Shown here: positions 1,095-19,800 of the stretch, in pieces | Position numbering within the stretch: position 1 is the stretch's first letter | Layout: each line of letters opens with the position of its first letter | Virus record (IMG/VR): IMGVR_UViG_3300013010_000090 | Coordinates: 1 to 21,269 of that record | DNA length: 21,269 bases | DNA from: a virus | Strand: one strand, 5' to 3' | Notes under the pieces: generated by a model | The model's input: only the letters and a program-made list of their open reading frames with translations | What the model was told of the DNA's origin: nothing | Database searches by the model: none | Position numbers and translations under genes: made by a program

Positions 1095-1316
1095 CTAAAG
1101 ACTGACTTTATCTTCTAAAATATACTCTTCACCACACGCTTTTCTAAAATTATCAGGCTTAAAGTTAGGATTTAAATATTCAAAATACCTATTTAAATCT
1201 TCAACTAACCAAGTTGATATTTCAGTTCTTAAAGGTGAATTATTAAAGCTTTTAGTGTGAGTGTTTGCTCTAATAATTTTTGCTATTTGTTGATAGTGCT
1301 TTTTTGATAGTGTCAT
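1095..1316 (-). CDS. Hypothetical phage protein, 73 aa, leftward
   Basis: The sequence opens MTLSKKHYQQIAKIIRANT and ends with a stretch containing LNRYFEYLNPNF, FRKACGEEYILED. This layout of a basic helix with HYQxIAKIIR, a second helix with a WLVEDL-type core, then NPNFKPDNFRKACG recurs in small phage proteins I have seen, but no function is known to me. It is soluble and helical; a small DNA-binding or anti-host protein is possible but not shown. The start is supported by AAAGGA ten bases upstream, within the leader motif shared with its neighbours. It is the first leftward gene from the divergent control region, so it is probably transcribed first. Confidence 0.7.
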   Translation of the reverse strand: MTLSKKHYQQIAKIIRANTHTKSFNNSPLRTEISTWLVEDLNRYFEYLNPNFKPDNFRKACGEEYILEDKVSL

Positions 1317-1513: not shown

Positions 1514-1675
1514 CATTGCAGCTTTACCTTAATTCTATTTAATAATCGGTTTGACCTGGTTTATATCTAATGAGTACCAACCAATTATCTTTTTACTGAT
1601 AACGATTAATTATCGGAAGTAATTGCGCGCTATAGATTAAATGTTTTGCCTGCGTTCGTGCGTAAAAATCAAGAA

Positions 1676-1709
1676 TGCGCACCCCCCCGTCACCCGCGCG
1701 CCACCCGCC
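1676..1709. other. GC-rich C-tract island
   Basis: 29 of 34 bases are G or C in an otherwise AT-rich genome. It contains a run of seven C (1682-1688) and a CACCCGC direct repeat at 1691-1697 and 1702-1708, spaced 11 bp apart, about one helical turn. The minus strand has several G-runs that could form a G-quadruplex. An alternating TA stretch (about 1715-1727) follows directly. Possible roles are an origin, a packaging/terminus site or an upstream promoter element. Confidence 0.7.
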
Positions 1710-1722
1710 ATTTATTATATAT

Positions 1723-1746
1723 ATATACATGGGACTGTAGGACACC
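1723..1746 (+). promoter_or_regulatory. Candidate T7-like phage RNA polymerase promoter, rightward
   Basis: ATAC (1725-1728), five bases, then ACTGTAGG (1734-1741) has the same spacing as the T7 consensus ATAC-N5-ACTATAGG, with one mismatch in those 12 positions. By analogy, transcription would begin near G1740, about 97 bases before the first late gene. Outside these blocks the match is poor. The call needs a single-subunit RNA polymerase gene elsewhere in the genome, which this window cannot show. Confidence 0.35.
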
Positions 1747-1796
1747 TTTAGCCAGTCAGCCTCACCTCTATCCACAAAACAACCCACCACTTATTT

Positions 1797-1824
1797 TTGC
1801 TAGACCTCCTTTTAGAAATAAAAT
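1797..1824 (+). promoter_or_regulatory. Possible host-type promoter before the late module
   Basis: TTGCTA (1797-1802), a 16-base spacer and TAAAAT (1819-1824, 5 of 6 matches to TATAAT) would place the start of transcription near 1831. That is only about six bases ahead of the ATG at 1837, giving an almost leaderless mRNA, which would fit the lack of a ribosome-binding site there. In AT-rich DNA such matches arise often by chance. Confidence 0.25.
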
Positions 1825-1836
1825 AATACCAGATAT

Positions 1837-2022
1837 ATGGATTACGATAGCAAAGACATACAATCTGTAGTATTTATAGAACCTAAGACAAACAATGTTA
1901 TTATTAAGATTACAGGGTTTCCTAATAAAGACCTTGCCGATATGTATGTTAGTTGGATTATGGCAGAATTATCTTTTGATTTTACTCCTGCTAATGGAAC
2001 AATAGACACCACTATTAACTAA
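1837..2022 (+). CDS. Hypothetical protein, 61 aa, upstream of terminase
   Basis: The family is not recognised. The protein is acidic, with alternating strand-like segments (SVVFIEP, NVIIKITGF) then a helix NKDLADMYVSWIMAELSF and a polar tail. Its stop overlaps the terminase ATG (TAATG at 2020-2024), so the two are translationally coupled. By position it could be a small terminase subunit, which often precedes the large one. However, 61 aa is short for that role and no DNA-binding helix-turn-helix can be seen, so the name is not assigned. There is no Shine-Dalgarno sequence before the ATG. Confidence 0.6.
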   Translation: MDYDSKDIQSVVFIEPKTNNVIIKITGFPNKDLADMYVSWIMAELSFDFTPANGTIDTTIN

Positions 2023-3296
2023 TGAATATAGTTATTCCCTACACTGCTAGAAAACATCAGAAGTTTCTTCATTCTAAAATGCTAGAAAAGCGTTGGTCTG
2101 TATTAGTCTGCCATAGAAGATTTGGTAAAACAGTAATGATGATTAATCATTTGCTGATGACCGCACTACAATCCAAACTAAAGAACCCTAGGTTTGCTTA
2201 TATTGCGCCTACCTTCAAACAAGCTAAATCTATTGCTTGGGATTACATCAAACAATTTTCTGACAAGATCCCAGGAGTACGCTTTAATGAGACAGAGCTG
2301 CGTGTAGACTTGCCTAATGGCTCTAGGATAACCCTACTAGGCTCAGAGAACTGCGATGGTCTTAGAGGTATCTATTTGGACGGATGCGTCATAGACGAGT
2401 ATGCCAATGTAACAGAACGATTGTTCCCAGAAATTATTAGACCAGCTCTATCCGATAGAAAAGGTTACTGCGTATTTATAGGTACACCACAAGGAATGAA
2501 TAATAACTTTTACGATATGTACCAGCATGCACAAAAGAACCATAGTGATTGGTTTTATTTTAAAGCACAGGCAAGCAAAACCAAAATAGTAGACGAAGAG
2601 GAACTAGAAAAAGCAAGAGAGATTATGGGAGATAACAAGTTCAAGCAAGAGTTTGAATGTGATTGGATAGCTAACATTGAAGGTGCTGTGTATGGAGAGG
2701 TCATGCAAAAGATGGATGACAAGAACCAGATAACCAGAGTACCTTATGATCCTGCTTTGCCAGTCTCTACTGCTTGGGATATAGGAGTATCAGACCACAC
2801 CGCTATTATATTCTACCAACAACTAGGTTCAGCAATAAACATAATAGATTACTATGAAGAACGAAAACAAGGATTACCGCATTTTATAGAAGTAGTGAAT
2901 AGTAAGGAATACATTTATAAGGATCACTATGCTCCCCATGACATTGAAGTGATGGAATTTAGTAATGGCAAAACCAGAAGGGAAGTAGCCTATCAATTAG
3001 GAATAAGATTTAGAGTAGTGCCGAAGATTCCATTAGAAGATGGTATCCATGCAACAGCTATGACCTTACCTAGATGCTACATAGATGTAGACCATTGCAA
3101 ACAATTAATAGATGCGTTAAGACATTACCATCGGAAGTACATAGATAAAAATCGTATGTTCCGATCTAAGCCTGTACACGATTGGTCATCCCATGCTTGT
3201 GATGCCATGAGATATCTGTCTGTGGGATTAGAGGAATTAAACACTAGACAAACTGCTCCACAAAATGTAGCAGATAGTGATTATAGTATTTTATAA
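2022..3296 (+). CDS. terL: Terminase large subunit (packaging ATPase and nuclease)
   Basis: This is the motor protein that drives DNA into the prohead and cuts the concatemer. The N-terminal ATPase domain shows a Walker A-type loop CHRRFGKT (residues 30-37), Walker B VIDEY with Asp125 and Glu126, and a coupling motif GTPQG (154-158). The C-terminal RNase-H-like nuclease domain has its acidic residues in the expected order: Asp253 in AWDIGVSDHTAI, Asp307 in APHDIE, and Asp394 in SHACDAMRY. The length of 424 aa is on the short side for large terminases (often 450-600) but both domains look complete. It overlaps the preceding 61-aa gene by one base and leads the packaging/head cluster, just ahead of three tiny ORFs and the portal. 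No frameshift or missing motif is seen. Confidence 0.95.
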   Translation: MNIVIPYTARKHQKFLHSKMLEKRWSVLVCHRRFGKTVMMINHLLMTALQSKLKNPRFAYIAPTFKQAKSIAWDYIKQFSDKIPGVRFNETELRVDLPNGSRITLLGSENCDGLRGIYLDGCVIDEYANVTERLFPEIIRPALSDRKGYCVFIGTPQGMNNNFYDMYQHAQKNHSDWFYFKAQASKTKIVDEEELEKAREIMGDNKFKQEFECDWIANIEGAVYGEVMQKMDDKNQITRVPYDPALPVSTAWDIGVSDHTAIIFYQQLGSAINIIDYYEERKQGLPHFIEVVNSKEYIYKDHYAPHDIEVMEFSNGKTRREVAYQLGIRFRVVPKIPLEDGIHATAMTLPRCYIDVDHCKQLIDALRHYHRKYIDKNRMFRSKPVHDWSSHACDAMRYLSVGLEELNTRQTAPQNVADSDYSIL

Positions 3297-17625: not shown

Positions 17626-19800
17626 ATGACCATATCATCAACTACAGTTAAAAATTCGTACAATGGAGATAACTCCACTACTACCTTTAACTACACATTT
17701 AAGGTATTTGCAGATTCTGATTTACAGGTCATTATTCGTTCCGCACTAGGAACAGAAACAGTTAAAACAATTACCACACATTACACAGTTACAGGAGCAG
17801 GCAATGCTAATGGTGGTTCTGTTATCTTTACTGCAGGAAACATTCCAGCTTCTGGAGAGACTGTAGTTATAAGAAGAGCTGTTCCGCAAACACAAGCGAT
17901 TGACTATATTGCTAATGATCCATTCCCTGCGGAATCACACGAAGAGGGACTGGACAGAGCAATGATGACATTGCAACAAGTACAAGAAGAACTAGATCGT
18001 TCTATTAAGATTTCAAGAACCAACACTATGACTTCTACAGAATTTACTGTAGGTGCTGCTAGTCGTGCTGGTAAGATTTTAGGATTTGATGACAATGGAG
18101 AACTCGTTGTATCACAAGAATTAGGAACATACGCTGGCAACTGGACTGCTGGAGAAACTTATAACGCTAGAGATATTGTTAAAGATACTTCTAACAATAA
18201 CATTTATTTATGTAACACAGGTCATACTGCATCTGGAACAACTCCTATTAGTTCTAATGCCGATGTAGCTAAATGGGATTTATTAGTAGATGCTTACAGT
18301 GCTACAGCTAGTGCCACTGCGGCGGCGGCTAGTGCTAGTGCGGCTTCTACATCAGAGAGCAATGCGGCAACATCAGAATCTAATGCCGCAACCAGTGAAA
18401 CAAATGCAGCTACTTCAGCAACTAATGCTGCTAATAGTTTTGACAGTTTTGATGACAGATTTTTAGGAACTAAAGCTAGTGATCCAACCTTAGACAATGA
18501 TGGTAATGCTCTTGTTGAAGGTGCGATGTACTACAATTCCACAGATAATGATATTAGATTTTATAATGGTTCAACTTGGGATGCTCCTGCAACTGATGCT
18601 GCAACGAGTGCAACTAATTCTGCAACTTCCGCTACAGCTTCAGCAACTTCAGCTACCGCATCTGCCAACTCTGCTACTGCATCTGCAACATCTGCGACTA
18701 ACGCTGCAACTTCAGAAACCAATGCTGCAACTAGTGAAACCAATGCTGCGACATCAGCATCTACAGCTACTACACAAGCTGGTATTGCTACTACCCAAGC
18801 AAGTAATGCGGCTACTTCTGCAAGTACAGCAACTACTCAAGCAACCAATGCCTCAACTTCTGCTACTAATGCAGAGACAGCAAAAACTGCTGCTGAAACA
18901 GCTCAAGCTGCTGCCGAACTTGCTTTAGATAATTTTGATGATATTTATTTAGGTGCAAAAGCTAGCGATCCATCCGTAGATAACGATGGAGATCCTTTAA
19001 CTGCTGGAGATTTATATTTTAATACTACTGTAGATCAACTTAAATACTATGATGGTTCATCCTGGTCAGGTATTGGTGTAAACACAGATGAAACAACAAA
19101 GGTATCTGCAAACGATACAACGAATGGTTACTTAAATGGTAAACTTGTTGCAGGTTCTGGAATATCTTTTACTGAAAATAATGATGGTTCTAATGAAACA
19201 TTAACCATTGCTTCTGCTTTAATTTATCCTACCATTAGTTCTATTGCTCCAGACACAATAACTAATGATGCAAGTAATATTGTCATCACAGGAACAAACT
19301 TTGTCATTACACCTAATGTAGAAATCATATCTACTACTGGTGCTATTTATTACCCCAACACAGTTACAAGAGATTCAGCTACACAATTAACGATTAACGC
19401 AACTTTAGCTGTTGATGGAACATATTTTATTAGAGTAGAAAACCCAGATGGACTTGCAGTTAGAAGTTCTACCGCTTTACTAACAGTTTCAGATGCTCCT
19501 ACTTGGACAACTGCTTCAGGCTCACTTGGTTCAGTAGCACAGGGTGGTGCTTTCTCTTCAACTGTAGTAGCAACTTCAGATAGTGCGATTACTTATTCAG
19601 TACAATCAGGTGCGCTGCCAACAGGAATTACTTTAAATACTTCTACAGGTGTGATAAGTGGTACTGAAAGTGGTAGCGACAGTGGAGAAACTGTGTACAA
19701 CTTTACTTTAAGAGCAACTGACGCAGAATTACAAACCGCCGACAGAGCATTTAGCATAACTGTTACTGTAGGCATCAACAATGGAATACAATTTAACTAA
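17626..19800 (+). CDS. Tail fibre with T7 gp17-type anchor and modular adhesin domains
   Basis: The receptor-side fibre, fixed to the tail by its N-terminus. Residues 1-150 are a T7 fibre N-terminal domain (NSYNGDNSTTTFNYTFKVF, PASGETVVIRRAVPQTQ, DLDRAMMTLQQVQEELDRSI-like block). Residues ~171-222 (WTAGETYNARDIVKDTSNNN) look like a small carbohydrate-binding fold. Two Ala/Thr/Ser/Asn heptad-like regions (about 224-270 and 320-434) each precede a repeated 46-aa module (275-320 and 437-482) with KASDP-x-x-DNDG and a final GS-x-W. The C-terminus has an IPT/TIG-like domain (~532-622) and an Ig-like domain with ALPTGITLNTSTGVISGT (~626-718). No chaperone or autocleavage domain is visible. The start lacks a close Shine-Dalgarno sequence. 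Confidence 0.9.
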   Translation: MTISSTTVKNSYNGDNSTTTFNYTFKVFADSDLQVIIRSALGTETVKTITTHYTVTGAGNANGGSVIFTAGNIPASGETVVIRRAVPQTQAIDYIANDPFPAESHEEGLDRAMMTLQQVQEELDRSIKISRTNTMTSTEFTVGAASRAGKILGFDDNGELVVSQELGTYAGNWTAGETYNARDIVKDTSNNNIYLCNTGHTASGTTPISSNADVAKWDLLVDAYSATASATAAAASASAASTSESNAATSESNAATSETNAATSATNAANSFDSFDDRFLGTKASDPTLDNDGNALVEGAMYYNSTDNDIRFYNGSTWDAPATDAATSATNSATSATASATSATASANSATASATSATNAATSETNAATSETNAATSASTATTQAGIATTQASNAATSASTATTQATNASTSATNAETAKTAAETAQAAAELALDNFDDIYLGAKASDPSVDNDGDPLTAGDLYFNTTVDQLKYYDGSSWSGIGVNTDETTKVSANDTTNGYLNGKLVAGSGISFTENNDGSNETLTIASALIYPTISSIAPDTITNDASNIVITGTNFVITPNVEIISTTGAIYYPNTVTRDSATQLTINATLAVDGTYFIRVENPDGLAVRSSTALLTVSDAPTWTTASGSLGSVAQGGAFSSTVVATSDSAITYSVQSGALPTGITLNTSTGVISGTESGSDSGETVYNFTLRATDAELQTADRAFSITVTVGINNGIQFN
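18295..18435 (+). repeat. Alanine-rich heptad repeats, fibre shaft part 1
   Basis: DNA coding for repeats of the type SESNAATSESNAATSETNAATSATN, with a period of seven codons. Such repeats form trimeric coiled-coil shafts in tail fibres. Codon choices vary between copies, indicating old or selected repeats. Confidence 0.75.
18448..18585 (+). repeat. Fibre module, copy 1 (46 codons)
   Basis: Encodes FDDRFLGTKASDP...DNDG...YYNS...FYNGSTWDA. It shares 23 of 46 residues with the copy at 18934-19071, so an internal duplication within the fibre gene is clear at protein level. Confidence 0.8.
18586..18933 (+). repeat. Alanine-rich heptad repeats, fibre shaft part 2
   Basis: A longer Ala/Thr/Ser/Asn tract (types ATSATASATSATASANSA, TSETNAATSETN, STATTQAGIATTQASNA) ending in an AETAQAAAELALDN helix. 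It repeats the architecture of part 1 and ends at module copy 2. Frameshifted open frames across it are low-complexity shadows. Confidence 0.75.
18934..19071 (+). repeat. Fibre module, copy 2 (46 codons)
   Basis: Encodes FDDIYLGAKASDP...DNDG...YFNT...YYDGSSWSG, the partner of 18448-18585. In both copies an aromatic-rich end with GS-x-W suggests a small beta-structured head that caps the coiled coil. Confidence 0.8.

Follow-up and report, generated by a model that had tools for sequence, protein, structure and literature searches.

A conserved element with a variable GC-rich box ahead of the terminase operon of HTVC010P-type pelagiphages, probably a control region for the late genes

What is a short, extremely GC-rich island followed by alternating TA doing directly ahead of the terminase genes of an AT-rich phage? 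We addressed this question in a window of 21,269 nt (the whole stretch of DNA analysed, IMG/VR virus record IMGVR_UViG_3300013010_000090), whose GC content is 33%. The phage is an HTVC010P-type pelagiphage, and megablast against phage records matched 20 of them, each a Pelagibacter phage, at 76–79% identity. Small leftward ORFs extend to 1316 and a rightward operon opens with a 61-aa ORF at 1837, followed by the terminase large subunit gene (terL) at 2022; the divergent early/late gap upstream of terL holds the island and the TA run. Both gene sides, leftward and rightward, are also present in the complete sister genomes that were read, and the Skadi phages are described, in the portion of the paper available to us, as having early and late regions and two regulators (PMC10504331). 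The features of the region are listed below.

1095..1316, minus strand: nearest leftward ORF, the other border of the divergent gap (mechanical ORF call; no match in a PHROG search)
1664..1675, plus strand: AT-rich block upstream of the box (AAAAATC in the window, T-rich in most relatives)
1676..1709, plus strand: GC island, the variable box (C7 left tract at 1682-1688)
1689-1695, plus strand: anchor GTCACCC (consensus TAYACCC, from the alignment of relatives)
1702-1708, plus strand: CGC-rich block CACCCGC (from the alignment of relatives)
1710..1734, plus strand: ATTTAT, then (TA)6, then CATGGGA (core TATATATACATGGGA at 1720-1734, -10-like)
1735..1836, plus strand: leader preceding the first ORF (opens with a conserved GGACACCTTTA-like stretch and is C-rich and G-poor after it)
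1837..2022, plus strand: small ORF of 61 aa, first of the rightward operon (ORF list; no match in a PHROG search)
2022..3296, plus strand: terL (phrog_2, 9.9e-39)

The first-pass annotation had described the contrast as unlike anything else in the window, and this holds. With 29 of 34 bases G or C, the stretches starting at 1676 and 1677 are the richest 34-mers present, the next best reaching 25 of 34 at 18311; in 300 first-order Markov sequences of window length the best 34-mer averaged 21.2 G+C, with a maximum of 25. The C7 at 1682 is the sole run of at least six C or G, CACCCGC stands at 1691 and again 11 bp further at 1702 with no further copy on either strand of the window, and (TA)6 at 1716-1727 is the only TA/AT run of at least four units. 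The TA stretch does not follow quite at once, as had been written, since six bases (1710-1715) intervene; the placement ahead of the terminase operon is correct.

To what extent is this arrangement shared? We took the best 80 of 597 loci by terL identity, picked without reference to the element. Among the 71 of them having at least 450 nt upstream, 64 carried the core TATATATACATGGGA with at most two mismatches within 1 kb, against 5 of 1420 shuffled sequences under the same criterion. Of the seven core-less loci, L007, L024, L025 and L071 carry altered versions by eye, the remaining three being L021, L048 and L054. A pattern scan for further loci yielded at least 119 stretches, and a fuzzy search gave 276 core matches, 181 of which lie no more than 900 nt upstream of terL; chance matches, such as those in the 3' part of terL, were dropped. 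The final alignment was built from 170 sequences with full flanks, reduced to 114 distinct and then to 105 dereplicated elements, in which L001 is the window itself. These 105 were picked by the core, and the 93 that could be registered were picked by the anchor (12 being unregistered), so the conservation of core and anchor in these sets is partly a result of selection.

The element was recognised in all ten HTVC010P-type isolates examined, Greip, Skadi-2 and HTVC203P having modified cores. A 19-nt core, allowing up to four mismatches, gave one match per genome in HTVC010P, Lederberg, HTVC035P, HTVC100P, HTVC204P and Skadi-2, and the core differs at 0, 2 and 3 positions in HTVC034P, HTVC024P and HTVC203P, respectively. 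It lies on the terL strand, 125–818 nt (mostly about 265–450 nt) from the terL start; HTVC100P and HTVC034P have extra genes between element and terL, and the element remains 5' of those genes. HTVC028P has a single core match, with four mismatches, which is not upstream of terL, and HTVC106P has no core match, only a doubtful GATACCCC-like stretch. The best core matches in 1.2 kb of Venkman, P26218 and ctXG6705 (5, 4 and 4 mismatches) were taken as chance. Copies of the element away from terL were also considered and rejected: the core matches in L164, L177 and L187 sit on seemingly unrelated contigs (ORFs were listed for L177 and L187) and the box is absent. Nine core matches occur in genome contigs that bear titles of organisms other than SAR11.

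Seen from the window, no other part of the gap is as well conserved as the core: 14-mers of the window taken from the core recur in up to 107 of 108 gaps (themselves picked by the core), whereas those from elsewhere in the gap, outside element and leader, recur in at most 29. Upstream of the island, at 1598-1619, the window has a dyad GATAA-N7-TTATC, a possible operator, of which HTVC106P has a near-perfect version (TTCCGATA..TATCGGAA).

The alignment gives the element a constant order: a T-rich block, three GC blocks spaced 10–12 bp apart (a C or G tract, the anchor TAYACCC and a CGC-rich block), the core, and a C-rich, G-poor leader (27 C and 8 G at 1740-1819 of the window). With the core's first T (window 1720) as reference, the T-rich block lies at −55 to −50, block 1 at −37 to −33 and block 3 at −18 to −12. 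A binding-site-like motif stands at a fixed upstream distance, the anchor beginning at −32 in 74 of the 93 registered elements; between anchor and core follow an A-rich stretch, block 3 and TTTATTA. The core is near-invariant, at close to 2 bits per base in the 105 aligned elements, which were picked by it. On this alignment the two CACCCGC copies are the forms that the anchor region and block 3 take in the window.

The GC maxima (−37 to −33, −28 to −25 and −18 to −12) have AT between them and are spaced by about 10 and 11–12 bp. Of 2000 column shuffles, 21 matched the power at 9.5–12 bp. In the S profile a period of about 23 bp was strongest and 11.5 bp came next, a point against the promoter reading given below. 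Block 1 is G or C in 88–95% of elements at its four best positions, with C exceeding G two to three to one. Nevertheless, 75 of 86 left tracts consist of a single letter, all C or all G, where 17 would be expected if the letters were independent; the half-site can therefore point either way, as CCCC-TATA-CCCC or as the palindrome GGGG-TATA-CCCC. Mapped on the terL tree, the tract class changes at least 16 times (117 labelled of 130, the 13 'mixed' rows being uncounted), compared with a mean of 28.6 and a minimum of 22 for shuffled labels.

We found no clear covariation in the block 3 dyad, no stable fold of the leader RNA (z +0.65), and no match in Rfam (gathering threshold) or tRNA searches. 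A leader peptide starting at ATGGGA was considered and rejected: in the window the fourth codon of this frame is already a stop, and no codon-phase pattern is present in the information content. The count of elements with a stop within 12 codons in this frame (22 of 105, the fewest; 38 and 31 in the other frames) favours such a peptide; within 24 codons the count is 73 of 105 (45 and 78 in the others).

If the element is common, is the GC island common as well? The first-pass annotation had held that absence of the island from close relatives would speak against it, and the answer is divided: the close relative L002 has retained the element with a box much poorer in GC, which lacks the extra G runs of the window island. 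Although terL is 99% identical between the two and the flanks nearly so, about 40% of the aligned box differs (identities 0.98 upstream, 0.61 in the box, 1.00 in the core and 0.95 downstream). Likewise, alignment across related phages finds the element kept and the GC island as such not common to them. The best 34-mer at the element in 64 relatives ranges from 15 to 27 G+C with a median of 20. Since the box varies among relatives, the high GC of the window marks the far end of a varying box; judged by these alignments, the window island is an extreme version of a conserved element and not a GC island as such.

A G-quadruplex on the minus strand had also been suggested, and the suggestion is weak: the window's minus strand is G-rich, but it fits a loose pattern only, with loops up to 12, and lacks a canonical G3+N1-7 motif. 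Canonical motifs occur in 0 of the 105 elements, by which we rejected the quadruplex as a shared property, and loose ones in 3 of 105; the missing G runs of L002 point the same way. It is extremely improbable that the GC island works through such a fold or through another special structure.

We then compared the box with its surroundings. Among 124 distinct segments, 25 pairs share at least 85% identity in each flank, and in 20 of these the box has a lower identity than either flank (medians 0.89 upstream, 0.74 box, 0.92 downstream). Such a choice of pairs itself favours this outcome, and the pairs are moreover not independent. The T-rich block (0.88) and the core (0.93), neither used to pick the pairs, also exceed the box. 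When 932 pairs were picked by the downstream side alone, mean identity was 0.742 for the gap at −160 to −50, close to the 0.713 of the box; among the 148 pairs of the most similar bin, the gap (0.739) was slightly less alike than the box (0.774). This comparison speaks against the box as a special hot spot.

Box similarity correlates at r 0.108 (75 loci) with similarity of the leader, which lies 15 nt from it, and at r 0.201 (41 loci) with that of terL, while TerS similarity correlates with the leader, about 3 kb apart, at r 0.335. For box and TerS r is 0.111, with a partial r of 0.054 given the leader (75 loci; permutation 0.0165) and of −0.07 given terL (41 loci). Beyond the leader, partial r is 0.075 for the O-like protein (permutation 0.078) and 0.105 for the HGG-type protein (permutation 0.0015). 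Thus the box follows these three proteins weakly beyond the leader.

Could the box be a neutral or physical spacer, in which GC merely insulates the TA run and the sequence, free beyond its GC-richness, varies like the whole gap? The weak tie of the box to the backbone, the comparable variability of the gap further upstream in the 932 pairs and the presence of G or C at fixed positions with so mild a preference for C would agree with this. The excess of pure tracts does not, nor do columns −27 and −26, which carry 1.7 and 1.5 bits when the sequences are aligned on the core alone; together these indicate that the box sequence matters, and we regard a mere spacer as distinctly improbable. At the other extreme, the box might act as a fast-changing 'password', a lineage-specific recognition sequence for the late switch, set on a near-invariant promoter and read by a co-diversifying factor. 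We consider this quite unlikely, and the less probable because the upstream gap varies about as much as the box.

What, then, does the element do? Genes upstream of it run the opposite way, so the rightward operon should have a promoter in this gap. Our reading starts from what the sequences show: where the element sits, that it is conserved and occurs once in each of the genomes tested, that its GC blocks are phased, that a −35 is missing and that its box varies. As in an activator-dependent late promoter, the element lies upstream of the late operon on the same strand, and a TTGACA-like −35 (at least four of six positions) is not favoured (22 of 105 elements versus 46 of 105 in one shuffled set). 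The position in the gap, the best-conserved core and the lack of a favoured −35 lead us to take it as a putative late promoter with an upstream binding platform. We thus propose that the element probably controls the late operon (virion and packaging genes) in HTVC010P-type pelagiphages, most likely as its promoter. The 'promoter enhancer' of the first-pass annotation was accordingly the best supported of the functions it offered, on the strength of the early/late gap, the phased GC blocks before a TA core and the missing −35, while its other two fare worse, as described below.

The portion of the Skadi paper available to us reports no phage RNA or DNA polymerase and predicts that HTVC010P-type phages rely on host polymerases (PMC10504331). 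Because there is no −35 box and no phage RNA polymerase is reported for the type, an activator-dependent late promoter would fit best. In such a scheme, host RNA polymerase would melt the (TA)n/−10-like core and start transcription at about CATGGGA (window about 1731-1734). The role of a −35 box would fall to a DNA-binding protein, made by the phage or, with lower probability, an architectural protein of the host, which would occupy the three GC blocks at intervals of roughly one helical turn and recruit the polymerase. Counted from the assumed start, the anchor would lie near −41 to −45. The late genes would in this way be switched on after the leftward early genes. Several points count against the promoter reading: the box follows TerS, the O-like and the HGG-type protein weakly, conservation beyond the presumed start (CATGGGACT..GGAC) exceeds what a promoter needs, and the TA run reads TATAAT on the minus strand, making a bidirectional role possible. 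On the minus strand of the window, a CTTGAY...TATAACC/ATTAACC-like motif recurs by eye before leftward small ORFs (~585-615, 1000-1020 and 1360-1385), perhaps marking early promoters. A pelagiphage transcriptome paper, in its accessible part, covers HTVC022P and HTVC027P.

The proposed late promoter resembles the late or middle promoters that depend on host polymerase and an activator (P2 Ogr, Mu C and T4 MotA) in having a −10-like core without a −35 box, and these likewise combine an upstream dyad or tract with control of virion genes. It differs from them in its three phased GC blocks, strongly varying box and single copy, and in a left half-site made of C in some elements and of G in others. 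Antitermination by lambda Q at pR' offers another parallel, with one start for a long late operon and conserved sequence around and after that start; unlike the pelagiphage element, that design has no upstream blocks.

A replication origin had been offered as a second function. In such a reading the TA run would serve for unwinding, DnaA-like boxes would lie in the leader and an initiator would bind the GC blocks. An AT run does adjoin GC here, and the phages encode a free-standing protein with the DnaA C-terminal, box-binding domain (PF08299, 1e-14; L088 29919-30440). DnaA-like boxes, a weak point in favour, stand about 50–60 nt past the core in the window (1768) and in HTVC010P and HTVC204P; with the pattern used, Greip, Lederberg, Skadi-2, HTVC035P and HTVC100P have none next to the element. 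The gap also contains two exact 16-nt copies of TAAAGAGATTGAATAG, 18 nt apart (1464-1497). In seven genomes the cumulative GC-skew minimum lies no more than 0.7 kb from terL, although this minimum also marks the switch of coding strand. The iteron-like repeats sit elsewhere: exact 8-mers repeated 18–26 nt apart, with a peak at 21–22 nt, were found in 41 of 47 lambda-O-like genes, kilobases away, where 7.8 were expected (the set was not dereplicated). The repeats lie within the gene and point to an origin there, and the O-like gene is a likely origin site on this sequence evidence; for the element itself the role is very improbable. In Greip, HTVC035P and HTVC100P the O-like gene (L088 25761-26444, L091 4180-4845 and L092 3008-3670, with lineage-specific repeats) has been annotated as a putative transcriptional regulator, and the Greip protein resembles lambda O-like initiators (phrog_678, 1.1e-4).

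The third function offered, a packaging or terminus signal, takes two forms. A cos site or other fixed terminus at the element was rejected, as 64 loci span the core, contig ends are spread without a sharp peak there, and sister Skadi records are cut at differing places. A 125-bp terminal repeat, which may be an assembly overlap, is given for Skadi-1, -2, -5 and -6 (PMC10504331); the records OP131302, OP131299, OP131293 and OP131294 start at differing points relative to terL, which argues against one fixed end.

A headful pac start, with the small terminase binding the GC blocks and TerL cutting near the TA core, is unlikely, albeit with more to recommend it: terL is close by, the core is conserved, and the box is variable and recognition-like. 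A small terminase of the Sf6 type is present (PF20901, 5.5e-7; phrog_1482, 1.9e-7), the Greip, Lederberg and Skadi-2 records are circular, and the Skadi paper mentions, in the portion available, pac headful packaging (PMC10504331). The weak correlation of the box with TerS would also agree, yet the two are uncoupled once terL is allowed for. Among the best 80 of 597 loci, 47 have contig ends within 3 kb upstream of terL, with 26, 10 and 11 in successive kb; this excess in the first kb is, however, spread over it, the 250–500 nt bin, which holds most elements, having 8 ends and the 750–1000 nt bin 9, and it could stem from local variability breaking assemblies. P22-type pac lies within terS. 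Pelagiphages share with P22/Sf6 headful packaging an Sf6-like TerS, circular assemblies and a site near terL, but their terS is about 3–4 kb from terL and the element lies in the gap, not in terS. The terS gene (L088 24999-25391, annotated 'putative DNA binding protein'; tblastn matches in 95 loci) overlaps in Greip a gene annotated as a methylase, which we take to be an HGG-motif-like zinc-finger protein.

Within the accessible parts of four papers on HTVC010P and pelagiphages (PMC10504331, PMC8163748, PMC12753301 and PMC3861242), we found no mention of the element. As judged from these genomes, an abundant group of ocean phages would have in common, before its virion genes, an element whose GC part differs even between close relatives. 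This conserved element with its varying box provides a concrete place for testing, and TATATATACATGGGA upstream of terL offers a sequence handle for the early/late border in metagenome contigs. Should the box indeed act as a lineage-specific password, co-infecting phages or satellites would be barred from each other's late switch.
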